From positions 3,844,001 through 3,908,000 of the forward strand of contig JAPEUQ010000003.1 of the NCBI GenBank assembly GCA_027946365.1: 64,000 bases of DNA, given 5' to 3'. The position numbers and the translations under genes were made by a program. Shown piece by piece: positions 15,777 through 40,835 of the stretch. Source of the stretch: Kalmusia sp. IMI 367209. Lineage: Eukaryota; Ascomycota; Dothideomycetes; Pleosporales; Didymosphaeriaceae. Below the pieces are notes generated by a model. That model was not told the DNA's origin and made no database searches. It saw only the letters and a program-made list of their open reading frames with translations. Position 1 is the stretch's first letter. Each line of letters opens with the position of its first letter.

Positions 15777-17507
15777 CTATGCCTTGTTGCTTCCCCTACT
15801 GAGCACCACTAGAGCTGTTGTTAAAATGAGAGTCAGACCGCCCGAAGTGATGATGAGGATATAGCTCTTGGCCATGCTGTGCAAAATTGCGTGAACGACT
15901 TGGTTCCGTGTCTCTTGGTTTAGGTGCTGTAAGTAGTCTTTCCCAACACCGGACACAATACTCAGCAACGGTGCATCTGGAGGTAATATCACAGCTAATG
16001 CGATCTTTGCGCGGTTAAGAAATACCGAGTTGGCGATACTGAGCGTGATGGCTGGCGCTGCAAGCTGGGCCCAAGTGATAAGACCAACAGCTGCTGGAAT
16101 CTGAGCTGAACTCACAGATTCCTGCGCGGCATTGAATGGCATCTGAATATATGCACCAGTGCCGCTCCCGATCAAAATGCTGTAGCCATATATCTTTGCA
16201 GGGGATGTGTGTTCATCGACGGTGTACATAAGTGCTCCGCCAGCGAGGACGAGAGCACCGCCATAGAAGAACCATGGCATCCAGTGGCCGCGTGAGCTAA
16301 CAACTGCACCGCAAACCATCACGGTGCCAACCATGAAAACTATGAATGGGAGTAGGTGAACTCCTGCCATGAGTGGTGACTCATCACGGACGTACTGAAA
16401 GCTTTGCATCAAGGTCAGTCTCGGTTCGAGAGGATAGACTGTGGGAGCTAGCTTACTATAACGGAATAAAGTAACAAGGAAGAAAACAAGACGTTGATGA
16501 GCACGTCTCGTTGAAAAATATTATAAGTACGTTCAGCTTCTTCACCATGGACATTGGGAAAACCGGTTGTTCTACCAACGGCACGAAGACTTGTTGTATG
16601 ACAAAGATGAACAGTAAGACTCCGAACACAATGAACAGAGCGATGATTTGTCCTGAAGGCCAGGGATAGATAAGACCGCCGAAGTTGATGGCTAGTATGA
16701 GGGCAGTTGTGGTACCTGCTAGCAGTATGAAACCAAGCCAGTCAATGTTTAGTAACCGGGCTGCAACGCTCATTCCTGGGCGAGGATCTTTTGACGGAAT
16801 GAGGAATAGATAGACGGGTGCAAATAAGGCGCCGATGAACAGATTGATATAGAACCCAAATCGCCACGTTGCACTTGATTCCGCAAAGGCGCCTCCGATC
16901 ACTGGTCCGAGGACGGTGCCTAAGCCCCACGTAAGGCCAGGAATTCCCATGTATAGAGCGCGTTCTTGTTCAGTTGTGGTGAGCGAGAGTAACGTAAGGA
17001 CACCAGTATACATGCCACTACCGCCAATGCCGCATATTGTTCGCCCAGCGATAAGGCTTTCGATGTCCGGAGCGGCGCCACAAAGCGCTGATCCAGCCTC
17101 GAAGATGATAATGCATGTGATGAATACCAATTTCGCGTCGAATTGGCCATATAGTTGGCCCCTAATTCTAGAGTTACCTTGAGGTGCATGAAAAGATGCA
17201 AAGGACTGTGCAAGGCTTACCATGAGAGAACAGTCGCGGCAGCACCCAGAAAAAATGCTACCGAATTGTATGCAAGTTTTTCGATTGAGTGGAAGTCTCG
17301 AACAAATGTTGCTTGAGTATCGGCCACGATGGTCCCATCCAGTCCCCAAAGGAATGTGACCGAAATCAAAGAAAGAACAACTAGGACCCATCTTACCCCG
17401 TGAACATCGCGAGGGGGTGCAGTATTTGTTGCATCTTCGCTCGATTTAGCATCTTTCGATGAATCCTCATGACTGATAGTGGGTTCCTGGAAGTTTTCCG
17501 TCGACAT
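15777..17507 (-). CDS. DHA2-family MFS drug/toxin exporter
   Basis: Exons 17507-17221, 17161-16457 and 16401-15777, with 59- and 55-bp introns (538 aa). An acidic cytosolic N-terminus of about 45 residues precedes some 14 hydrophobic segments, the DHA2 (H+ antiporter) layout of aflatoxin-efflux and Tri12-like pumps. The second-helix loop reads GQLYGQFDAKL (motif A position) and motif C reads GLGTVLGPVIGGAF. The conserved WRFGFYIN follows. It probably exports a small molecule across the plasma membrane. It is transcribed in the same direction as the NOS-like gene, whose stop is about 1.27 kb upstream of this start, which suggests export of that pathway's product or self-protection. Confidence 0.9.
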
Positions 17508-18780: not shown

Positions 18781-21700
18781 TTATGCTGCTTGAAATACTT
18801 CCTCGATATACATATCGCCCAATGCCTTCTTTACATCCGTCCCCAGTAAAGCGCTTAGGTTTGATGCAAAGCTTTTCGCGGCTCGTGGGGGGACGCATAC
18901 GAATACGTAGCAGGACTCTTTGATCTTCGAAATAAGCAAGTCTCGGAATTTCGCGTCAAAAACATCGTCTTGCGCACGCCATTTGGATGGATTGCTGGGC
19001 GTCAAGGATAGGGTGTCCACAAGGCTCGAAGCAATCGCACCCTGAAGGGCATTGGAGATTACTCGGGCATCGTCTGCGCGGAATCCTACGAAAAGACTGA
19101 TTGGGCTCGATCCTAAGCTGCCATTGTTTGCAGTGGTGGAACATCCAAGCACTTGACGAGTGCGCTGTTGTAAAACGTATTTGAGAGGGGCGATTCCGGA
19201 TCCAGTGGTAAAGGCAATAATTGATTTCGATGCGTCTTGGACCATAGGAGCTATAGCTGTTCCAGTAAATCGAATGCGCAGCGTCGTTTTCGGTTTTGCA
19301 GAAGAAAGGAATATCGAGCTGAACCGTCCTTGTGGCTGACTTTTGATTAAAAACTCGAGGCTTACTCCACCATTTTTATTCGTATCTGAAGATGCTATTG
19401 AAAAGTTACGAGGTCTGCCGAGTGGCAAAGCGGCACAAATTGTCGAAGGGTCCAATATTGACCTTCTACAATTTCGAATCACTGCAGCAGACTTTATGAG
19501 TGGAGCGTGAAGCAAAGTCTCCTTTTCTTCTTTCGAGATCAAATATCTTGGTACCCAGCGCACATGTGTGAACGGCCGCTGGAGGTCGACAAAGTGCTCT
19601 AAAATCTCGCGGACTGTTCCTTGATATGACTGAATTTTGACTTTCTCGTTTCCAGCTAGCCCGAGATCCTTGAGGACCTTTTTGACGTCTGTTTTCCTGT
19701 TTGGTGTCATAACCTGCACGTGCGAAAACCCGGTGTACTTGGCATTGCCAATGTTCAGCACAAGACGCCGGATGTTTGGTGAAAGTAAAGTACATGACAC
19801 TATGGATGCGTCAGAGAACGTTTCTATGAAAGTAAAATTCTCGGGAGAGGGGTCTGATGTATTGAAATCCAAACTCTCGGGTGAAGAGCCGACTAGGCTC
19901 ATTGAGACATCATTGAGCCATGTCTCCAGTTGACTCCATGGCGGGTTCTCGAGTGCGGTATCGCCTTTGAAGTAGTCCGGAACCAGAAATTGGACCTCTT
20001 GATCGATTAGTAGACCATTTAGCTTCTTTGCAGCCCCGTTGTACGAATCTGAGTAAGTTGAATCACCGTTTCCGAATATAGCGCACCGAAACCCTGCGGA
20101 CATGTTCGCTTTTTCGAGAGATCTTGCAAATTCTTGCCCGTTGGTCGGAATATCGCCATGTCCCGAAGAACTCACGATAAGAAGGATGACGTCTGTACTT
20201 GTCAACTTCTGAAGATAGAGAGAATTTAGCGGCTCGACCGTAGCGACTGAAAACTGCTGCGAGTCCCCCAATCGACGTTTCAGGCAGAACTCGGCTCTTC
20301 GTGCAAGTTTTAGGGCAGTCACACCGGCGCTGCAATAGCAAATATATATCCTTCTCTTTTTTTCTTCCGGGAGAGTAGAATTGATGCTTGATGGCGGACA
20401 AACTTCTTCCTGGAATCCTAATTTGCGCTGCGTTCTTCGCTTCCAGTGTTTGATCGGATCTTGAACGTGTCTTGCAATGAGCGGTTTTGGTTGATAGTTT
20501 GGAGATCCGCCTCGATGCCACAAAGGAATGATAGAGCCCTGCGGAGGAGCAAGCCAGTACGGATCTGCCGGTAGGCGAAACCCGAACTTACGGAAGTGCT
20601 CATCATCAAAGCTGCAGTACATTGCTGAAGCAGTCAGCGTGTCGGATATTCTGACATTCGAATGCTGAAAAGAATAAGATACTGCAAAATTCAGCTCTGA
20701 TTGTGCGTTGGACTGTACATTCTTTAGCCAAAGACACAAAATCAGGTACACAAGTCCGCAGCCGTGAACACCGGCCGGAATGGTTCCAACATCCGGCACA
20801 CAGAGGCAACTCACATTACATATAACCCGGCCTTGGTGTATGTGTACGGTAAGGGAGTCGTTACAACTTACCAGAAGACGGAGTTTTTCTGACTCCTGCA
20901 CTTCGTCCAGTTCTTCTATAGAGCCTACCCATCCTAGGCACTCGACCAGGGATGGTAAGGCGTTATACCTTTGCTGGTCTGCAAGATCACGAACTCCTAT
21001 TTCAGCATCCATAAACCATCCAACGAAAGGAGTTGCTGTATACTGAACACCTCCAACATCGAATCCTAATCGGCTCAAGGCAGGAGCAGGAACCCATTTC
21101 AACCCTAGCTTATCAAAAGCGAGGCTAAATTTTGGGTGTGTTATGTTGACTAGGGGAAATAGATTCTTAGGGAGCTCGGTGATTGCGGGGATGTCATCCT
21201 CAGCCATCGTAACAATAGGAAGGAGGTCCCACTTTGTCCGAAAGACTGGTGGGTTCCATCCTAGCTCGATGATATCTTTAGTAAGCTTTACGTTTAAAGG
21301 ATCACCTAGAATAGTCCCATCGTTTTGTTCGTACTGGGGATCTCAACATCGTGTCTATGACGTGGAGGAATGTACTTACACCTGCAAATGAAAGCAATTG
21401 CATATTCCATATCATAGGGCCTGATCGGCTAATACTGCGAGGGGGGAACACAAAGACTAGACTTGCATTAGAGTCTTGAAGATTCCAATGGAACCAAAAA
21501 AAACCTGACCTGTCGGAAGAATGTCTCCATTATTGAACGCTATCTGAAGCTCATTCACAAGCGCAGTTCCCATTTGCACGCTAGAGCGGATTCCACGTAG
21601 ATCACATAGCCTTCCGAGGTCAGTAATAATTCATGATGATGAGTGTCCCTACGTACCTTAAATCTTCATATTGAGAGCGCATTATACACCTTCTGGAATG

Positions 21701-21979
21701 TTTCCATGCAAGGCGAATTCCGTGTTCGAGTTCGATTCTGGTTTGACACCATCGGCCCCCAGCGCGCTCGTCTTTGGCAAGTGCAGCATTTGGCTCTGTC
21801 GTCATTTCACTGGAGTTCGCCTCAATCTCTTGAAGGACCTCAGTCATCCTGCGTTGAAGCGCGGTATCAGATTCAATAACTCCATCTCGACGTAGCTGCC
21901 GTAAAAAATCTATTGCTTCTTCACGAATGATCGATACAGGTCGATTCTGTCCAACACGCGGCTCTGCAGAATGAATCAT
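18781..21979 (-). CDS. nitric-oxide-synthase-like protein (oxygenase + FMN/FAD/NADPH reductase)
   Basis: Exons by eye: 21979-21657, 21610-21510, 21456-21382, 21341-20872, 20712-18781; phases are consistent and give 966 aa. Residues 75-400 form a NOS oxygenase domain: haem-thiolate box AWKHSRRCIMRSQ (Cys98), PPRS...WNMQLLSFA, LKWVPAPALS, and the substrate/pterin box PFVGWFMDAEIGVRD with Trp275, Glu280 (the arginine-guanidinium Glu of animal NOS) and Arg284, then DPYWLAPPQGSIIP. A short basic linker (WKRRTQRK, 413-420) sits where animal NOS binds calmodulin. A flavodoxin domain (443-590; SSSGHGDIPTNGQEF, FGNGDSTY), an FAD domain (RNFSIASS, 758-765) and an NADPH domain (GSGIAPL, 827-833) follow. 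The NADPH-domain CGD box reads CVP. The start is the first in-frame ATG fitting the family and could lie upstream. Expected reaction: NADPH/O2-dependent oxidation of L-arginine or a related guanidine to give NO and citrulline, probably cytosolic. Confidence 0.9.
20713..20871 (-). other. stopless 159-bp intron in the NOS-like gene
   Basis: The minus strand has a strong donor (CTG|gtaagttg) and an acceptor (gtacag|TCC). Splicing joins LRLL to SNAQSELNFAV, which matches NOS alignment. The segment is a multiple of three with no stop, so an ORF caller reads through and adds 53 residues (VSCNDSLTV...) that fit no NOS. Retention would insert a Cys-rich loop in the haem domain. Confidence 0.7.
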
Positions 21980-22777
21980 ACGACTACCTTCGCAGAACCG
22001 AGCCGTGCATCCTGTAGGTTGAAGAATGGAATAATGAGAAGTGATTGCTTGAACCCCCCTTTACTTCTGCATTCAAAGTTGAAGCATCGTACTTTGGAGT
22101 ATTGTGTGCCATGTCGTGTAGGGGTCAAAACATGAGAAAGCAATTTAAGAATTGGAGTGTTATCGATCGGTGCATATGTTACACGGTAATAGAAAGGATC
22201 AGTCATCGCTGCGAAAGTGCTTTAGTAAGGATCAACTTCTACCTCCTGAGGAGTTTTCCAGTGCCTACACTACCTGTCACATTGGTCTTCCCCAAAGCAG
22301 GCCTGACTTCCGGTGCATTCTGGCATGTCACGCACAGACTCATGCGAATGCCGAGTCACGGCCAGAATGAAGCAGCCCAACGTCCCTGGATCCCACCATC
22401 TTGCATGTCTAGTATTGGGCCAATCTATGCCTTGCACTAGCTTCGGAGAGTACTCCGGTGTAGGGCCGATATCGTTTACGATTCATGTCCGGATGGATGT
22501 TCATCCTGAACTACTGATGCCGATCGTGAAGCGAGTTCGAGGCTTATCGATCGAATGCGAGCGGGCAAACGAACGTCATTCCTGATTATAATTTACAAAT
22601 ACTTTCTATACTTCTGATAGAAGCATATCGACAATTGCGTACGAGCGTAATGAATAGAACATGTGTGAAAATATCGATTGTGATGAGAATTCGCGATGCC
22701 CGCAAGCAACCTCTATCGATAATCTTGACAGCCATAGACAGCCATATGAACAGATGACCATTCAGTAGTAGAGTCAC
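21980..22777. other. intergenic, NOS-like promoter
   Basis: About 800 bp between the copper-oxidase-like stop and the NOS-like start, both on the minus strand. No coding or RNA feature was recognised; it probably holds the NOS-like gene's own promoter. Confidence 0.5.
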
Positions 22778-25045
22778 TCAGTCAAAAATACCTCCGTGTC
22801 CCGGAATCTTGTCAAACTCCACGTGCGGACGCTTCCCGACCCAACCCGGCACATCCGGCCAAGCATCATCGCCCTCATACAATGGCACTTGCATACCTAG
22901 AACGAAATAGCGCACACGGAATACGTGAAACATGGTCATAGCTGACTGAGTGATTTTCCAGCGCAGTGCCATCCATCCACTTGCCGGGAGCTCGTGGAGG
23001 TAGCCGAGCGGAGGATTATCCAAATTGATCGACTTCGGCTGCTTGGCATTCGCTTCGGCGACATCTTTCCACTCAAATTTCGTATCCCCTTTACCTAGTA
23101 AGTATGTTGGATCGTTGTGTTTGTACATAGGTAGGGAGACGGGAAGATCGTTTTCCACGATGATATCGACGACACTTCCCAAAGGCAAGTTTTTGACTGC
23201 TGGATTCGGCCCGGGCATTTCTCGCTTTGGATCGAGAACAAGGGGTTCCATCAGAGCTCGGAAAATCTGCCAAGGAACGCCGTTCAATGAGCAGTTCGTG
23301 ATATACGGATTGTTTGGATCGGGGGCCCCGGTAGCTTTGAAACGTAGCGTGATATCTGCCTTTTGTGGTGGCGCAGACTCAGGGAAAGGTGGTAGAAGAA
23401 TCTTATCCTCAAGTTTGACTCCAGACTTAGGGGATCCATCGAGGTGCATCGAGGAATCTTCTTGTCCTGGTTGCGGCACAGGAACACCAAGAGGCTGATT
23501 GAATCTCCGATGCGGATAACGCAAGATCGCGTATCCTTGAAGTGATTGCAAATCGCTAAGCGCATAGAAGCGGATGGCATAGTCTTTAGGCTCTTGATCG
23601 AGCTTCACCATTACAGTGACGCGTTCGGCATTGAGCACTGTGAGGACCTATCCAGAAGTCAGTGGCAGAATGAAGTTATTTTGAACAAAACCAATACCTT
23701 CACTTCCTGGGCTCGAACGAAGCCACCGTCGTTCGCCACGATCCACATATCATGATCATCAATGGAGACTCTCCATGGATGCTCTAACCCTGGATTGACG
23801 AAGTTCATCATAATCCAGCGACGATTATTCGTGTTGAATACCTCCACGTGTTAGTTATGTTGAGTTAAAGATAGACGAGTAATGCTGGGACCATCCCTGG
23901 TAATATGATCGAGGCTTTCGAGTCTGGTCTTATCTGGGAGTCCCTTGACTACTTCGTTGTGTGACTAAAGAAAAGATTGTACTTACTTTATACTCTGACT
24001 CGGATGGCTTGCATTCACCGTAAGCAACTGCACCTGACGGCTGCTTAACACAGCCGTGTGAATCTACGTCTTTACCGTTGATCTGCAGGATTTCTTTGGG
24101 CCTACAATGCACACGACCCTTTCCTTTGAGGATATTAGCACTGTCCTCATTTGTAAATATCTTCAAACCCTCACCATTAATGAGTACCGATTGAAAACAG
24201 TAAGGGTCATAACCTTCGGCCTGAAGCTGCGCCAGCAATCCAGGCATTTCTCGGTGCTGGTAGTTGTACATAACCACATGCTCTGGGGTCTCTTCAGCTT
24301 CCATCATATCTTGAATGTCGTACTTATTTTTTGACACGAGATGATATGGTCGCTCTCTATTCGGTCGTGGGCGGATCCAAATCGTTCCATAATTTCCGTC
24401 CACCGAGGGAGTCGACGTATGATCTAGATACCACTTGAGTCCCCATTGGCCAGTTGTATTTAGCAAGGCAGTAAAGTTGGCACGCGGAAGGATCGGAATA
24501 AACGTGACCCCTGAAGTCCCGTCATTCCACACCATGCTGTTGCTATGGTGCATACCGACCCTAAAAACCATTAGTAATGCGCTTTTTGAACATTATCAAT
24601 TAGGTCTACATACCAGTGCAGCGATATTGGAAGCCCTAGATCATTTTGGATGTGAACACGGAGCAAATCCCCCTCATTAACGTTCATCGTTGGAAATGGG
24701 GATTCAGAGTTGCCAACAAAGATTGGACGCCAATAGCCCCCATCTAAAAATTGCATCAATTTAGAGCACGACTGAGAAAGGCGGCTATTAGATACCTGGG
24801 TTACGCCATGCTTGGCTGATAGTTAGGTTGTAATCCACTGTTGTTGGAAGACGAGACGCCGACTGTGCTGCGTAGTCCGCATGATTGATGATCTTTTGAG
24901 AAGAGAAAAATCCTCTACGAGAGACATGGGTGACAAGCCAAACGAGTGGAATAATTAAGATCAACGACAAAATCCTCCGTGGCCAAAAGTGTTTGTGGGC
25001 TCCTGCTTCTTGAGCAAGAAGGCTGGTTCGAGTACTTTTCTCCAT
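22778..25045 (-). CDS. membrane-anchored multicopper-oxidase-like protein lacking most Cu ligands
   Basis: Exons 25045-24796, 24743-24614, 24560-23987, 23841-23698, 23647-22778 (655 aa). The start is ATG 25045; an upstream in-frame GTG is not used. A single N-terminal membrane helix (ILSLILIIPLVWLVTHV, about 25-41) replaces a cleaved signal. Three cupredoxin domains follow, with intact scaffold motifs (WNDGTSGVTFIPILPRANFT, YGTIWIRP, SIDDHDMWIVANDGGFV, GKGDTKFEWKDV). Copper sites are degraded: HWHG is H126-W-V128-G; HSH is L172-D-H174; HPxHxH is L538-P-M-Y541-K-H543; HCHxxxH is H607-V608-F609-RVR-Y613. Seven of eleven ligands are replaced, including the type-1 Cys. The frame, introns and scaffold are intact, so this looks like a pseudoenzyme kept for another role rather than a pseudogene. 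It could bind metal, a ligand or its divergent active partner. The intron 23986-23842 (145 bp, CTAAC branch point) is the least certain. Confidence 0.85.
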
Positions 25046-26035: not shown

Positions 26036-28195
26036 ATGGCTTTCATCAATTTCCTCGCTTTTATTCTTCTGCTCCAAATGGGGATCGCGGGTCAAATCAG
26101 GGAATACCATCTTACTCTGGAAGCGAAATGGCTTTCTCTAGGTAAGTGAAGAGCTTTAGCACGAGGGGGATAGCGCCCAGCCTAGAAAAATTATGCAGCT
26201 ATATTCATGGCTGTCCCCAATCAAACGAACACTCATAAAGGTTACGCTCAATAACTGCATTTGCTGATTATGTGTGCTTATAGATGGGAATTCGCGCCCA
26301 GTGCTCACAATCAATGGTCAAACTCCGGGACCTGCCATCGAAGGAGAGGAGGGGGATACCTTGCGAATCACTGTTACCAACAATATGTTCATTGAAGCAA
26401 CAATGCATTTGTAAGTTATATTAGCTCGGAGGACGCTGATAATTCCTAATAATACACTTAGTCATGGTGTCTTTCAAGTTGATAGGTATTGGAATGATGG
26501 CGTGCCTGGAGTTACGCAGTGGCCAATTGAACCGAGGAATGAATACACCTACGAGTTTACCTTGACCAACCAAACTGGTATCTATTTCTATCATGGTCAT
26601 TTCGGACCAGCGTTCGCTGATGTACGAAGTATCGTTTCTGTAAACGTGGGCGGGAAGCTGATTCGTATCATAGGGACAGCGGGGTCCGTTATGGATTCGG
26701 CCTAAAACCTCACGTCCACGGCCATACGAATTGATATCGACGAAGACATCGGATGTCAAAGCTATTATTGATGCTGAATCCCACCCACATCATATTCTTG
26801 TCAGCGATTGGAATTATGATGGTATGGAAATCCTAACCGTGATGTTCCGAGACGCCGGCATCACTCCCTCCTGTGCCGCTTCTCTCGTTACGAATGGTAA
26901 GGGAAGAATTACCTGTCTCGACCCTGATATAATTAAAAAATACAACAAATACGGACCAAGAGACTCGATGGCATGCCTGATTCCAGAGGGTAAGACTCAG
27001 TTCATGAACGGGAGGGAATGCCGCGACTCCAGTTCAGATCTCGAAGTCATCCAAGTAAAGAAAGGGCAGAAGTATATTTTCTTGAATTTCATTCATCCTG
27101 GAGCTCACCATGAGCTACGTATCTCAGTCGATGAGCACGATATGTGGCTTGTAGCGGCGGATGGTGATTTTGTGAAACCTAAAAAAGTGCAGGTAAATAT
27201 ACAGGTGAAGGCATGAATAGATCCACATAACTAACGATTATTTGAGGCATTCAATCTCAATATGGGCGATCGAATCAGCGTCATTGTACCGCTAGACCAA
27301 AAGCCAGGGGACTATGCAATCCGCATGTCGTCCCTCGCACCAGAACAGATCATACAGGGACTTAGCATCCTTCGTTACTCTGGCCAACCAGACCTTCGTG
27401 ATAAGCATAACGTCATGCTTACCCCTTCAAGCAGGCCACATATTGATCTTGTTGGCGACATGATTTCTACAGGCACGATGATGGACGAGCTCACGGATCT
27501 AGCTCCGTTCCCTGATCGTAGACCACCGGAAAGTTCGGATACAACACTGCGGTTCATGGCGAACATGACTACTCCAAGCACCTGGGTTCTTGCCTCAGAG
27601 CCACACCAAGGCTTCCGACAGCAAATGCCGCCGATCCTTTGGAACAAAGAGTCGCATGGTCCAACAACCTTTTCTGGCCTGAAGAATGGGTCTGTAGTCG
27701 ACATTATATATGAAAATGCGGCTCATGCTATGCACCCCTTCCACAAGGTAATGAGAATTGTCCCGCTTGAGTTTATAGGCTAAACAGTGCAGCATAACCA
27801 CAAGGCCTTCATCATTGGACGTGGCGAGGGATACTTCAAATGGCCCGACGTGGCCACGGCCTTGAAAGAGGCTCCGGAAAGTTTCAACATGATAGACCCT
27901 CCCCTTCGTGATGGCGCCAGGTTAGCTGCTGGGCCCGGATCGTGGACAGTCATTCGCTATACCATTACATTTCCTGCGTTGAGTATGTTGCATTGTCATC
28001 GCATCGCACATTTTGCGGTAAGTCATACTCATCATGTCTTTCGACTAAGGATTTTTGCTGACCTTGATATCAAAGGGCGGCCAACAAATTGTTCTTATAG
28101 AAGGTGGTGATGCTATGCCTCCTGCGCCCGATTATATCAAAAATCTTACGCATTCCGAGTTCGTGCCTCCTCTGCGTTACGGGCCATTGGATTGA
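26036..28195 (+). CDS. secreted multicopper oxidase (ascorbate-oxidase/laccase type)
   Basis: Exons 26036-26141, 26284-26410, 26462-26621, 26674-27192, 27247-27747, 27793-28017, 28076-28195 (585 aa). A signal peptide (MAFINFLAFILLLQMGIAGQ, cleavage near 19/20) directs secretion. Three cupredoxin domains carry all ligands: H77-F-H79-G, H122-G-H124, H467-P-F-H470-K-H472 and H538-C539-H540-RIA-H544. The type-1 axial position is Gln549, where many laccases have Leu, Phe or Met. HNHKAFIIGRGEGYFKWPDV and RYGPLD ends are typical of fungal oxidases related to conidial-pigment and AO-like enzymes. It should couple one-electron oxidation of phenolics or similar substrates to O2 reduction outside the cell. 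It is divergent from the ligand-poor paralogue, and the two align throughout. Confidence 0.9.
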
Positions 28196-35221: not shown

Positions 35222-36526
35222 CTACGCTACACCATCGGACGCTCTTAGTCCCCTAAAGTCGTCGCCCATGTAAAATTGCGTCATCTCAATCCACACTTCC
35301 CCCCATTCCCTCCTAAACCACGCCCTCTCGTCACTCCAAAGCTTCTCATGCACCACCTTCAGTTTCCCTTCTTCATCCTCTTGCGGAAAGGCTGCGCCCC
35401 ACTCCCTGTCCAGCGTCGTCGCTGGAAACGCTCCATTGATACTAAACTGCCAGTTCAGAAACGCTTGCTCCGCCATTGTGACGTCGTACTTGTCGAAGTT
35501 TAGGTAATTCTGAAGTAGGCGCTGGTGCATGAGTGTGGACGGCGAAAACACCATGCTACCGACGTTGATGTTGATGTTGGTGGGGTCGCCCGGGTTTTGC
35601 GGGACGCCGGCGAAGACGTAGGGCTCGCATGTGGATGTGCCATCGAGGAAGTGGTCTTCGGGGGCGAGTTTGGACTCGATACAGGTCTTTTGGGGTGCGA
35701 GGTCGAACATAGCGTCGATATTGTTGACAGGAAATGCATCGGCGTCTAAGAAGAGGATTTTGAAGAAGTCGGTCTCTTTCCACATGTTAAGTTTCGCGAA
35801 GAGGTCTTTCCAGCGGTGTTGGATGCCTTCGACGTTCGGGTTCCATTCTAAGGGTGCGAGCTCGCGCACTATGGCGCCGGCGCCGGTGAGAAGTTGGCGC
35901 TGCTCGGCTGTAACGAAGTCGCCAACGAAGACGACGAAGGCGTACTTTTCTGTGCGCGATCTAGGAGACCACAAAACACGGTAGATAAGCGAATGAACAG
36001 CCATGTAGTATGGATCTTTCAGTGAAGGATTACGTGTCGCCATGAATGTGGCGTACACGTTGCTCGCGGGCCCATTTGGGTCGTAGTTGTGAGCTTTGTT
36101 GTTGCTGAAACTCTTCAGAGAATCAACAGGCAGTTCGAGATCAAGATCTTGCTGGAATGAGAATTCAGGTTGAAACGCTACTGGAGCTTGATCGGGTACT
36201 GGGGGTAGCTGTGCATCATCTGATGGCGGCAGACCAGAGAGGTCGCTGGCCGGTGTAGGAGGCGTCTCTTCTTGTGGTGTGTCTCCATTCGGAAGCACTG
36301 GAGGTGGTTGCACCTCTATTTCTGGAGGTTTTTGCGTAAACTCGGAGTTGCCCAAGCTCGCAGAGGATTGTTGTGAAGCGGCGTTGCCAAATTCATCGTC
36401 TACTGACTCTTGGAAAGGTACACCGAATTGGTAGGCATCTGGTAACTTATCCTGCTGTTGCGCAACGAAGTAGACAATGGTGACGAGTATGAGTGTCGCT
36501 GTCGCGACATTGCGCCATCGTCTCAT
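35222..36526 (-). CDS. GT8-family glycosyltransferase (glycogenin-like), type II membrane
   Basis: A single exon, 434 aa from ATG 36526. A short cytosolic end and one helix (VATATLILVTIVYFVA) anchor it, probably in the Golgi. A Pro/Gln/Glu-rich stem of about 130 residues is followed by a nucleotide-sugar transferase domain with NVYATFMAT, AFVVFVGDFV, the metal/UDP-sugar DxD box ILFLDADAF, and INVGSMVFSPS. This is the layout of fungal GT8 proteins related to glycogenin and GlcNAc transferases. The sugar donor cannot be read from sequence. It lies next to an acyltransferase and a GT32 enzyme, suggesting a shared glycan or glycolipid pathway. Confidence 0.88.
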   Translation of the reverse strand: MRRWRNVATATLILVTIVYFVAQQQDKLPDAYQFGVPFQESVDDEFGNAASQQSSASLGNSEFTQKPPEIEVQPPPVLPNGDTPQEETPPTPASDLSGLPPSDDAQLPPVPDQAPVAFQPEFSFQQDLDLELPVDSLKSFSNNKAHNYDPNGPASNVYATFMATRNPSLKDPYYMAVHSLIYRVLWSPRSRTEKYAFVVFVGDFVTAEQRQLLTGAGAIVRELAPLEWNPNVEGIQHRWKDLFAKLNMWKETDFFKILFLDADAFPVNNIDAMFDLAPQKTCIESKLAPEDHFLDGTSTCEPYVFAGVPQNPGDPTNININVGSMVFSPSTLMHQRLLQNYLNFDKYDVTMAEQAFLNWQFSINGAFPATTLDREWGAAFPQEDEEGKLKVVHEKLWSDERAWFRREWGEVWIEMTQFYMGDDFRGLRASDGVA

Positions 36527-37248
36527 GTTGATGAGGCACTGAAAAGAATGACAGAGCTGGCAATGACTTCGGTGTTCGTGACGTACGGAGCACGGGGCTC
36601 AAGCGTGAAGTCAATCCCTGCAGAAACTATCTCTCAACCTTCTATGAGTGACAGGGTGTATGGTGCTGCATACCAGATGGGAATTGATATCAACAGTTTT
36701 CGAGGAACAGACGGGACAACTTCTCGATAGCATGCACATGAAAAGATGTGCAGGTACAGCCCGAAGTGCGATAAGCACACGGTGGACAGTCATGCGTGGT
36801 GACGATCGTACGATAGTATACGACAGCCCCGAGTGGACCAGCCTCGTATTTGCTGAGATTATGGGTATCAAGCGGACCTGAATATCGAAATCTTGCATCC
36901 GTCTGTCGACATGGGAGGTCTTTTTTGGCGGCCAATTGATGAGTGCTGATCCGGCGGCGTAGTGCCAGGGCCCGTGAACCTACCCCGCCAACGGGTCACC
37001 CCCATGGGGCCGTTAGCGCCGGACGCAGCTCCGTTTCCAGATGGTCAATAATCCTCCCCCATGTTGGTGGCAGGGTTGAGAGTTCTCTTCGAGGCTGCAC
37101 ACATGGGGCGTCCAGCTCGTTTTCTCTTCTCCGAGGTACATGTGAAGTGGCGGGACACGAACGGCATGACGATACCTGCGAAATCGGAAATCAAACTTGC
37201 GAAGATCGTAATTGATGTCATTCTACGGCGCCATTCGCGCGACTGGGA
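36527..37248. other. intergenic
   Basis: This holds the GT8 promoter and the acyltransferase 3' side, both genes being on the minus strand. No other feature was recognised. Confidence 0.45.
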
Positions 37249-38731
37249 CTAAGCTATTGGTTTCGGCGAAGAGGGAGGTCCCAGTGATTTGCTGTAGAGC
37301 CAATTGGCAAACTTGACGCTGGGCTCGTCGAACAGCTTGGTCACCACCTCGGCTGCCCACAGCGTCGCAGGTAGAATGATCAACTGTGGAGCCCAGAAGG
37401 CGAGTTCCAGTCCCATCGGCCCTTTCTTGGACAGAGGGAATTTGTCGACCCACTCGGGAATATGCTCTTTGTGTTCGGCTCTCGGAAAACCGACTGCTGC
37501 GTAGAGGCGGTCGCCCAGCAGCCATATGAGTGGGCCATGGACCAGGTACAGCGCGAATGAGACGCGGCCGAGGTACTGACAGAAGCGCGTCTCGAAGAAC
37601 TGCCTCAGCCACGGAAGACGAGGTATAGATGCGACGGTGAAGATAGCGGCCCAGAACAGATAGAACCATTTGGCATCGTAGACTGCCTGAGGCTTCAGGT
37701 GAGAAAGCCAGATCCAACCGGGTGATCTTTTCAAGATGCCCATGTAATCGTCTCCATCGCAAGAAGGCACTCCTCCGAGGTACATTGCAAGAACGAAAAG
37801 ATGGAAGAAGATCAACTCTTTGAAGTTCTCAAGCGTCGAGAAGATGCGTGGCAATTTTTCGTTGAGGGCAAGTATTTCCAGTTCGCAGAGCAGCATTCCA
37901 GCCATGAACAAGGCGCCATACCAGCCGTCGACAATGTAAAGGAAGTAGTATATGAGGCCGACCTCAATCCATAGCCTAGCGTTCCTAGTGCATTTGGAAA
38001 GGGCGGACAGTGCCGTATAGATGATGATAGATCCTTTGAACTCAATCGGAATTGACCATGAGTGTGGATGGAACAGCAGGGGAAATTCGTACATGTTTCC
38101 GGTAAGGAATACGAAGCTGTAATTTTTGAAGGTTGTGTAGTAGGACCAGAGATCTTCACGGAATGTCTCCTTTTTGTCTCCGTACGCGACGTAGATTCCG
38201 GGGTAATGTCGTATAATCAGACACACAAGACTGACCGCGATGACCGGTATGTAGAGTCGAAGCCAGCGTCGGAAAAGGGCGGATCCAACACTTTCCATTG
38301 CGCTTTGATGTTGGCCTTTGTGGATCAAGCCTAATGATTTTACCGAGAGCACATAACCCGAGATGACAAAAAAGATAGCCACGGCAAAGTGGCCGCCAGA
38401 AAAGAAGTGTCGTACGAAGGGCAAAGCAGCAAAATAATGTCGGCCTTCGTAGCCAAACACATTTTCGTAGATGATGTTCCCGTGGAGTCCGTGCGACCAC
38501 AGTTGATTGTGGTGGATATACACAATGAAAGCCGCGAACCCTCTCAGGCCATCGAGCCAGGCGGTCGGTCTTAAGCGCTTCTTTGGGCTTCCCAGGGCGA
38601 ACGTTCAGGAATTCAGGCCGCACGATATCGAGGCTCCATCTTGTTGATCGCACCGATTTCCACGTCGAGGAATTCAGAGGCACTTCTTGCATGCGATCCT
38701 GGTCTAAGAGACCTTCGTATTTGGCTGGCAT
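37249..38731 (-). pseudogene. acyltransferase-3 family membrane protein, one frameshift
   Basis: From ATG 38731 the frame reads MPAKYEGLLD and ends a first segment WSLDIVRPEFLNVRPGKPK. The continuing family sequence (KRLRPTAWLDGLRGFAAFIV, then HFFSGGHFAVAIFFVISGYV) is one base out of register. Dropping one C from the CCC run near 38589 joins them and gives 493 aa, a normal size. There are no splice sites at the join. About ten membrane helices and the LDGLRGFAA / FFVISGY boxes define the acyl_transf_3 family, which transfers acyl groups to membrane-proximal sugars. The last part is IWLLGDRLYAAVGFPRAEH and a Pro-rich tail. It is probably functional apart from a sequence error, and sits between GT8 and GT32 genes. 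Confidence 0.87.
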
Positions 38732-39551
38732 CGCGCGCAATTGCGGAAAAAAGAGAATGAGAAAACACAGTGGATGTGGGTAACAGTGCACAGTGAGAGT
38801 CGACGCTTTGAAAGAGCAAACGTTGGTAAGATTGAGAATGACTTGAACATGTTCCCACAGCTTTGATGATTCGACGCACGTGCTTCTTTGCGTGACACCG
38901 GAGCATGAACTTCATACCGAGGAGCCCCAAAAGCGGGTTGTTGTCAGTGGTTGATGTTGATTGGCTAACGCTAGTGTAACTGCAGGGGTGAGGCGCATAT
39001 GCGGGGATAAAGTTAATTTAGTTTGCCAACAAGCAGTCAAGATCAGCGAACAACTCGCCTCGGATTTCACATGCAGCACACGGACTCACAGTTCATCCAT
39101 GCATGTGAGTGGTTTGTCAAGCCGGTCCCTGGCAGAAGCCGCGACTGCACGTTGATGCGACCCGTAAACGGTGGAGTGGCGGCATGCAGTCGCGGAGGCT
39201 ACCCGTGTAAGCTTTAGCTTGGCGAATACGCTATCCACCTTCGCCATTTCTGCCGATGAGGCCTGCAGGCTTTGAGTATGCACATGCAGTGCTTAATGTT
39301 CTCCCCGGTCACACGAGACATCGACCTGCCTTTCACGTACATGCCGAATGTATATCGCTCCTTTGTTGGCTTTTCAAGCCGACGTCATGTCGGCGACTGG
39401 CCGAGGCTGTCGGTCTCTAGCTGTGGATCATGCTGACTAGGGGCTGTGGAGATGAAGCTTGGGTACCAGGGAGCTCGCTTTTGACTTCCCCATAGCTCCC
39501 CTGTGCGGTTGGCAAAAAGGCTCGCAGCTGCAATTTCCCATTGATATCAGC
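38732..39551. promoter_or_regulatory. divergent promoter, acyltransferase / GT32
   Basis: Upstream region shared by the minus-strand acyltransferase and the plus-strand GT32 gene. No motif can be named. An open frame from 39459 extends the GT32 ORF upstream, but only from a TTG. Confidence 0.45.
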
Positions 39552-40835
39552 ATGCGCACGCGGTCATTTAGACCTCCACCGCTGAAGCTCCATCTTAACA
39601 CCAAGATGCCCGTACACTCGCCAATTGCCTCCCACTTCAGGAGTAGACTGACTACTCAAGTTCGAAGAGTGCTGCCAGCATATCTTGCTCTTTTGTTCCT
39701 TATCCTCTTCTTCGCCAACACCCACTTCTTCACTGCACCCATTCGAGCTGCACACAAGTACAGGCGGGAACTGAAGTACCAACAGCCTTTGCAAACATCG
39801 ACCACTACCATTCCGAAGAAGATTTGGCAGACGTGGAAACAAGGTCCACTCACATTTGAACAAAGAGACTCGGATACAGCAAAGACATGGCCGGCGAAGA
39901 ATCCCAATTACCGGTATGAGGTGCTGACAGATGACAATGCCCTTGAATATGTCGAGGAGCACTACGGCGTGCACGGTTTCAACCGACCAGACATAATCAA
40001 TCTCTATCGGGAGCTTAACATTACCATCATACGAGCCGACCTCCTCCGATACCTAATCATGTACGCTGAAGGAGGAGTATATGCGGACATCGATGTGGAA
40101 TGCTTACGACCAGTGAATCGGTTCATCCCCGAACGTTATAACGAGCTGGAAGTCGACATGATCATTGGTGTTGAGATTGACGAGCCAGCATTCGCAGCCC
40201 ACCCAGTACTGGGATCTAAGTGCAAGTCCTTCTGCCAATGGACATTCGCAGCCAAGCCTCGCCTACCTGTCATGATGAGGTTGATTGAAAACATCCAGGA
40301 GTGGATCCATGGCTTGGCTAAGAAGAAGGGCGTTCCCGTTGGACAGCTCGAGCTTGATTTCAACGAGGTTATCAGCGGAACGGGCCCGTCGGCTTTCACT
40401 GACGCCGTGCTCGCGCAAATGTCAGCGCAGAATGGTGGGAAAGAAGTCACGTGGGATCCTTTCCACAATCTTGCGGAATCGAGACTTGTCAATGGCATAC
40501 TAGTGCTCAACGTCGAAGCTTTCGCTGCAGGCCAAGGACATTCCGACTCCGGCAATCATGATTCAAGAGGCGCATTGGTCAAGCACCATTATCACGCGTC
40601 GGGTTGGCCGTCGCTTCATCCGCGTCGCAATCATCCCATGTACGGCGAGGTTGAGAAGTGTAATTGGAAACCTGATTGTGTTGCGGAATGGGTGAGTTTC
40701 TTCCTACACAGTGCCGTCAATCATGAATTGCATGCTGATCGTAGACAGGATAAGAACGTGGCGGAGTGGGACACTCTGCCCAAGGAGGAGCAAGAGAAAC
40801 GTCTTGCGAGCAAACCAGCAATAACGCGACCGTGA
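39552..40835 (+). CDS. GT32 (OCH1/DXD-type) glycosyltransferase, type II membrane
   Basis: The start is most likely ATG 39552 (MRTRSFRPP) or 39606 (MPVHSPIASHF); both precede one anchor helix (AYLALLFLILFFANTHFF). The lumenal domain has IPKKIWQTWK, WPAKNPNYRYEVLTDD, IRADLLRYLIMYAEGGVYAD followed by IDVEC (the DxD metal site of OCH1-type GT32 enzymes), and SGTGPSAFTDAV. Near the end a 57-bp in-frame stretch, 40692-40748 (donor gtgagt, acceptor gacag), looks like a stopless intron; splicing joins CVAEW to DKNVAEW. Length is 427 aa with the stretch read through, 408 aa spliced. It probably acts in the Golgi on an N- or O-glycan or glycolipid. It is head-to-head with the acyltransferase. Confidence 0.87.
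   Translation: MRTRSFRPPPLKLHLNTKMPVHSPIASHFRSRLTTQVRRVLPAYLALLFLILFFANTHFFTAPIRAAHKYRRELKYQQPLQTSTTTIPKKIWQTWKQGPLTFEQRDSDTAKTWPAKNPNYRYEVLTDDNALEYVEEHYGVHGFNRPDIINLYRELNITIIRADLLRYLIMYAEGGVYADIDVECLRPVNRFIPERYNELEVDMIIGVEIDEPAFAAHPVLGSKCKSFCQWTFAAKPRLPVMMRLIENIQEWIHGLAKKKGVPVGQLELDFNEVISGTGPSAFTDAVLAQMSAQNGGKEVTWDPFHNLAESRLVNGILVLNVEAFAAGQGHSDSGNHDSRGALVKHHYHASGWPSLHPRRNHPMYGEVEKCNWKPDCVAEWVSFFLHSAVNHELHADRRQDKNVAEWDTLPKEEQEKRLASKPAITRP

Follow-up and report, generated by a model that had tools for sequence, protein, structure and literature searches.

A 64,000-nucleotide stretch of the Kalmusia sp. IMI 367209 genome (contig JAPEUQ010000003.1, positions 3,844,001 to 3,908,000; hereafter the window) carries a gene for a nitric oxide synthase (NOS) on the minus strand at 18781..21979, beside two genes of the multicopper oxidase (MCO) fold, MCO1 and MCO2. 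We consider it likely, with a probability of about 0.8, that this gene encodes a fungal-type NOS within a NOS/MCO2/MCO1 neighbourhood found in several ascomycetes, and that its nitric oxide (NO) is supplied to the MCO pair. Searching the genome (42.8 Mb, 30 contigs) with the NOS oxygenase profile PF02898 at E ≤ 0.001 returned three exon-wise matches at this one locus and no second locus. The spliced protein matches the same profile at E = 2.4e-77 (residues 45–381 of a 955-residue first model; 260.8 bits against a cut-off of 22.7), which bears out an earlier note, made from the letters of this DNA alone, that had proposed a NOS-like gene here with this profile as its check.

The gene model comprises five exons (21979-21657, 21610-21510, 21456-21380, 21333-20872 and 20712-18781) separated by GT..AG introns of 46, 53, 46 and 159 nt, and encodes 964 residues with no internal stops. 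Its junctions were matched to homologues, and it replaces the 955-residue first model, which had served as the query for the homologue search and for the first Pfam and PDB searches; a different acceptor for intron 2 restores VFVFPPRSISRS, while a new acceptor for intron 4 gives LLSNAQ, in line with homologues. The earlier note had counted 966 residues with Cys98, Trp275, Glu280 and Arg284; Cys98 keeps its number, and the others become Trp273, Glu278 and Arg282 in the shorter protein. P0001 (N0V90_004026, 788 aa, from the 3,992,429-base contig), the nearest match in the database, is the same gene. It begins METFFRQYEQNDG, lacks exons 1–3 of our model, including the haem cysteine, and omits SNAQSELNFAVSYSFQ, so that the public record is truncated or mis-spliced relative to the predicted gene, much as the note had expected gene callers to miss the 5' exons.

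Beyond the oxygenase domain, Flavodoxin_1 matches residues 436–556 of the 955-residue model (E = 1.7e-10, 41.6 bits against a cut-off of 25) and is found in 36 of 37 NOS homologues at E ≤ 0.01. FAD_binding_1 and FAD_binding_6 fell under their Pfam cut-offs in the same model and NAD_binding_1 was unmatched, results that count against our reading and leave the domain search suggested by the note only partly successful. As Pfam matches alone were too weak to establish the reductase, other searches and a structure model were used instead. Searched on its own against PDB sequences, the reductase matched mainly in its FMN part, and because whole-protein structure matches were dominated by the oxygenase domain, the reductase was modelled on its own. 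The computed reductase fold places FAD and NADPH modules in the same chain as the oxygenase and FMN domains, as the note had supposed, and on this model the reductase retains both modules in diverged form, at odds with a statement in the literature. Residue conservation, assessed in an alignment of 100 homologues of 940–1250 aa (from 120 fetched), is close to complete at the residues assigned to the haem, arginine and reductase sites: Cys98, Trp92, Glu278, Trp374 and Trp386 are present in all 100, Arg282 in 99 and Trp273 in 98; in the reductase, Ser759, Gly825 and Gly827 are invariant and Arg756 is kept in 96.

The 5' end is less secure. Directly upstream of the modelled ATG, the in-frame stretch 21980..22060 (minus strand) encodes RGVQAITSHYSILQPTGCTARFCEGSR, which contains a CxxxxC motif and can be aligned to the N-terminal part of other NOSs. 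The two cysteine codons, located by eye at 22009-22007 and 21994-21992, fall in columns where 94 and 93 of the 100 homologues have Cys and 6 have a gap. We take CxxxxC to be the zinc motif at the dimer interface of animal-type NOS, with Cys326 and Cys331 presumably the zinc ligands of the neuronal enzyme; phmmer aligns the stretch to neuronal NOS 8t1j at an offset of 309, which would place the two residues at exactly these positions if ungapped, and a search with the stretch and the first 139 residues only gives a weak match (E = 0.0095). Because this conserved frame aligns with other NOSs, it probably belongs to the true first coding region. Judged from the alignment, the modelled ATG is thus not the true start, the 5' end of the 964-residue model is provisional, and the gene is not complete as the note had described it, which also tells against our reading. 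Between the modelled start and the upstream stop no in-frame ATG occurs, which means that translation either begins in an exon further 5' or has to be explained in some other way; several candidate start exons were weighed by eye and none was convincing. A separate reading frame that opens with an ATG (MAHNTPKYDAS...; 21980-22111, minus strand) lies immediately 5' of the conserved CxxxxC frame and out of register with it.

The Kalmusia protein belongs to a well-populated fungal family. Of 7996 candidates scored, 300 proteins had E ≤ 0.001; among the best 120 of these, 100 are 940–1250 aa long with conserved motifs, and all those with an organism name are fungal, so the note's view that fungal NOS-like genes are sparse does not hold. 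That view echoes the literature: in the excerpted text of PMC10889981, NOS genes are rarely found in fungal genomes and many fungal NOS entries are based on activity or inhibitor tests. Nor is the family wholly uncharacterised, as the note had nearly claimed, since an excerpt of PMC10831120 states that a fungal NOS (from Lepista sordida, by the cited title) contributes to 2-azahypoxanthine formation; P0062 from Collybia sordida, the same species in the taxonomy and thus a candidate for that enzyme, is 40% identical to the Kalmusia NOS. Family members from Colletotrichum, Aspergillus, Neofusicoccum, Collybia and others share the Kalmusia domain order and its haem, arginine, RxFS, GxGxAP and C-terminal motifs, and many carry the UniRef label 'nitric-oxide synthase (NADPH)'. 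Among the 120 listed, with the organism's own record excluded, identity is 35–48% where the whole query is covered; the alignment to P0002 gives 49% over 985 columns.

A 42-row tree, built from the Kalmusia protein and 41 of the 120 homologues, pairs Kalmusia with Venturia (94/89) inside a group of seven Dothideomycetes (87/85), neither fork being starred; the smallest starred set that holds it comprises nine Dothideomycetes and seven Sordariomycetes (95/89). This arrangement suits vertical descent with losses without proving it. We take Shiraia to belong to the Pleosporales, where the genus Kalmusia is likewise placed. No other Pleosporales NOS appears among the 120 homologues listed, as judged by name, rows without a name not being judgeable; NOS genes in Shiraia are named in the excerpt of PMC10889981.

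The two MCO genes give this NOS its setting. MCO1 (22778..25045, minus strand; 655-aa model) and MCO2 (26036..28195, plus strand; 585-aa model, one of 72 candidate splicings) were delimited from Pfam pieces, splice models and ligand alignment, with ends set by eye, and are paralogues with 33% identity over 589 columns. All 11 copper ligands (T1, T2 and T3, in roles we assume from the family) are kept in MCO2, while 7 of 11 are replaced in MCO1, including the T1 Cys (Val) and both T1 His. The loss is largely shared by 25 MCO1 relatives (P0121–P0146 minus the Kalmusia record). In place of the T1 Cys, 9 of them have Ser, 8 Ala, 7 Val and 1 a gap; of the other six lost positions, four are without His in 25 of 25, a fifth is without it in the 24 that were printed, and a single His occurs in the column of T1 His10. 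Among MCO2 relatives, by comparison, the T1 Cys is kept in 55 of the 58 scanned (of 120 listed). MCO1 and five inspected relatives have an N-terminal hydrophobic segment starting at residue 24–34, which suggests a membrane anchor, and MCO2 and two of three inspected relatives open with a hydrophobic segment consistent with a signal peptide, the third record starting further in. Identity to Kalmusia is 42–49% for NOS and 58–69% for MCO1 in seven genera, and 59–71% for MCO2 in the five of them with a row, so that across these genera the level of sequence conservation is similar for MCO1 and for the intact MCO2; MCO1 and its relatives may form a pseudoenzyme family. The public Kalmusia MCO1 record, of 376 aa, is truncated or mis-spliced relative to the 655-residue model. 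Separately, P0167 from Didymosphaeria variabile shares 82% identity with MCO2 across 68% of the latter, and no MCO1 or NOS of that species is among the matches listed.

Physical linkage of these genes recurs in independent genomes, without being universal. Longest-contig values were compared for 120 NOS, 26 MCO1 and 74 MCO2 rows. The MCO1 rows are those left of 34 after removal of the 8 remotest, and the MCO2 rows those left of 120 after removal of the 45 remotest and of one that lacked a contig value. Locus tags of NOS and MCO1 lie close together in Kalmusia (N0V90_004026/004027) and in GTA08_BOTSDO05762/05764 and Q9160_007707/007709, and those of NOS and MCO2 are neighbours in M1822_004064/004063. 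NOS and MCO1 share a longest contig of 60244 (Teratosphaeria nubilosa), 86933 (Pyrenula), 3306877 (Dothistroma) and 3992429 (Kalmusia) bases, NOS and MCO2 one of 34402, 200289, 60244 and 473938 (Bathelium), and MCO1 and MCO2 one of 60244, 340543, 369254, 672349, 5623950 and 5700105. As a rough control, sizes perturbed by up to 3% coincided 0.0085, 0.013 and 0.002 times per trial. We therefore read NOS, MCO1 and MCO2 as a conserved NOS/MCO/pseudo-MCO module in several ascomycetes. The note's suggestion of a new genomic context is supported to the extent that MCO homologues lie on NOS contigs, or one or two tags away, in other fungi, and we found no report of a fungal NOS/MCO cluster or of a copper-less MCO family among the titles and abstract openings listed from an open-licence library.

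Several points weigh against such a module. Linkage was judged from locus tags and identical contig sizes rather than read from the DNA; the shared Dothistroma scaffold is 3.3 Mb; and the GTA08 pair has close tags and different longest contigs (384,945 and 340,543), each homologue row being a cluster of proteins. In Cercospora beticola the three contigs differ (NOS 2,471,293; MCO1 4,173,231; MCO2 4,172,263), and the matches listed include no MCO2 record from Kalmusia. The Aspergillus, Ophiocordyceps and Lecanoromycete lichens that carry NOS are absent from the 34 MCO1 homologues listed, and Xylaria, Elsinoe and Lasiodiplodia have MCO1 and MCO2 on one contig with no NOS among the 120 listed. 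Such separate occurrences would fit an active NOS that serves signalling only, its nearness to the MCO genes being ancestral synteny without a shared pathway. NO is treated as a fungal signal in the excerpt of PMC10889981, and an excerpt of PMC13070100 describes NO signalling in Shiraia that raises expression of the hypocrellin cluster, for which a figure legend lists an MCO. Same-contig or near-tag linkage in several genera and the conservation of a presumably inactive MCO argue the other way. This alternative, which overlaps our preferred explanation in all but its final step, has a real chance of being right, if short of an even one.

Animal NOSs (nNOS, iNOS and eNOS) differ in their calmodulin helix, which we did not recognise by eye in the Kalmusia linker; the enzyme is thus probably Ca2+-independent. 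The corresponding linker of P0002 (residues 501–522) is modelled with pLDDT <50, and an excerpt of PMC4160249 gives a strong predicted calmodulin site in a Macrophomina oxygenase ORF, contrary to our view of the linker. The Kalmusia C-terminus is also short compared with animal NOS. A profile search of the genome for PTPS (PF01242) gave no candidate, though such a search could overlook a gene broken up into tiny exons; GTP cyclohydrolase I, FolB (which shares the T-fold with PTPS) and DHFR are present, and a search for sepiapterin reductase was uninformative (55 matches, none above the cut-off). With folate enzymes found and PTPS not, tetrahydrofolate is probably the cofactor rather than tetrahydrobiopterin, a use with precedent in Bacillus subtilis NOS, which holds tetrahydrofolate in structure 1m7v (by its title). 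The genome also encodes a flavohaemoglobin (457 bits, cut-off 432), the usual NO-detoxifying enzyme.

A rival reading is that NO synthesis has been lost through divergence of the FMN loop and the pterin site, and that the NOS-like protein is, for instance, an uncoupled source of superoxide. The loop reads YCSAGVT (Y-C-S-x-G) instead of the T-x-T-G of other diflavin reductases, the first Trp of the animal ADWxW motif in the pterin region is Pro in Kalmusia and in 97 of 100 homologues, and both substitutions speak against our reading; together with the missing PTPS match they would favour this alternative. Yet haem and arginine residues are kept in 98–100 of the 100 homologues, and an excerpt of PMC10831120 credits a fungal NOS with a part in making 2-azahypoxanthine; we consider loss of NO synthesis unlikely. 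That the locus is a pseudogene or a chance frame, as its unsettled 5' end and truncated public record might suggest, is very improbable given 964 residues open over five exons, the similarity to P0002 and the conserved motifs.

From the computed domains, residues, reductase fold, linkage and ligand loss we infer an activity, a cofactor, a location and a joint function. By family membership, the haem-thiolate oxygenase would oxidise L-arginine to citrulline and NO, with electrons passing from NADPH through FAD and FMN to the haem within one chain, probably independently of Ca2+ and with tetrahydrofolate. By gene position and conservation, the NOS would supply NO to whatever a secreted MCO2 and a probably membrane-anchored MCO1 without working copper sites do outside the cell. 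One elaboration is that a cytosolic NOS releases NO that diffuses to MCO2, held or steered by the anchored MCO1, where phenolic radicals made by MCO2 couple with NO, or MCO2 oxidises NO, to give a nitrosated or nitrated pigment or metabolite; this would be a eukaryotic counterpart of bacterial NOS/P450 nitration pairs, and in these particulars we hold it to be rather doubtful.

Known systems resemble the locus in part. The bacterial clusters TxtD/TxtE, RufN/RufO and Laj3/Laj2 likewise set a NOS next to an oxidative enzyme (PMC10831120, excerpt), there a P450 and here an MCO with its copper-less paralogue. For the full-length P0002 model, Foldseek ranks Synechococcus NOS first (syNOS, 9q05; E = 9.9e-53, 1065 columns), with a TM-score of 0.31 because the domain arrangement differs; syNOS has a globin domain (PMC7400543, excerpt), unlike the Kalmusia NOS. 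Several MCO2 relatives bear the names of Abr2/TilA-like fungal oxidases, from which MCO1 differs in having lost both T1 His and the T1 Cys. The laccase–fasciclin pairs of naphthopyranone dimerisation likewise join a laccase to a non-laccase helper (PMC13207265), whereas the possible helper here is itself of MCO fold.

Elsewhere in the window, a TRI12-like major facilitator superfamily (MFS) transporter lies at 15777..17507 on the minus strand (MFS_1 E = 1.5e-19, TRI12 E = 8e-8 on one ORF; ends by eye), so that the NOS does stand beside MCO genes and a transporter, much as the note had remarked. No polyketide synthase or nonribosomal peptide synthetase was matched in the 26 ORF stretches of the window scanned with Pfam. 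ORFs for a GT8-like glycosyltransferase (minus strand, below the Pfam cut-off), an acyltransferase 3 (minus strand) and a DXD glycosyltransferase (plus strand) lie close together at 35225-40832.

Many fungi are already known to have an enzyme of this type; it is the grouping of a NOS with a copper oxidase and a copper-less relative that hints at an uncharacterised use of NO. Without working copper sites and about as conserved as its intact partner, MCO1 suggests a role as scaffold or chaperone. Now that the gene model and the domain picture are corrected and a linked pair of partners is in view, fungal NO use becomes directly testable, and so does the question of which cofactor the NOS employs.
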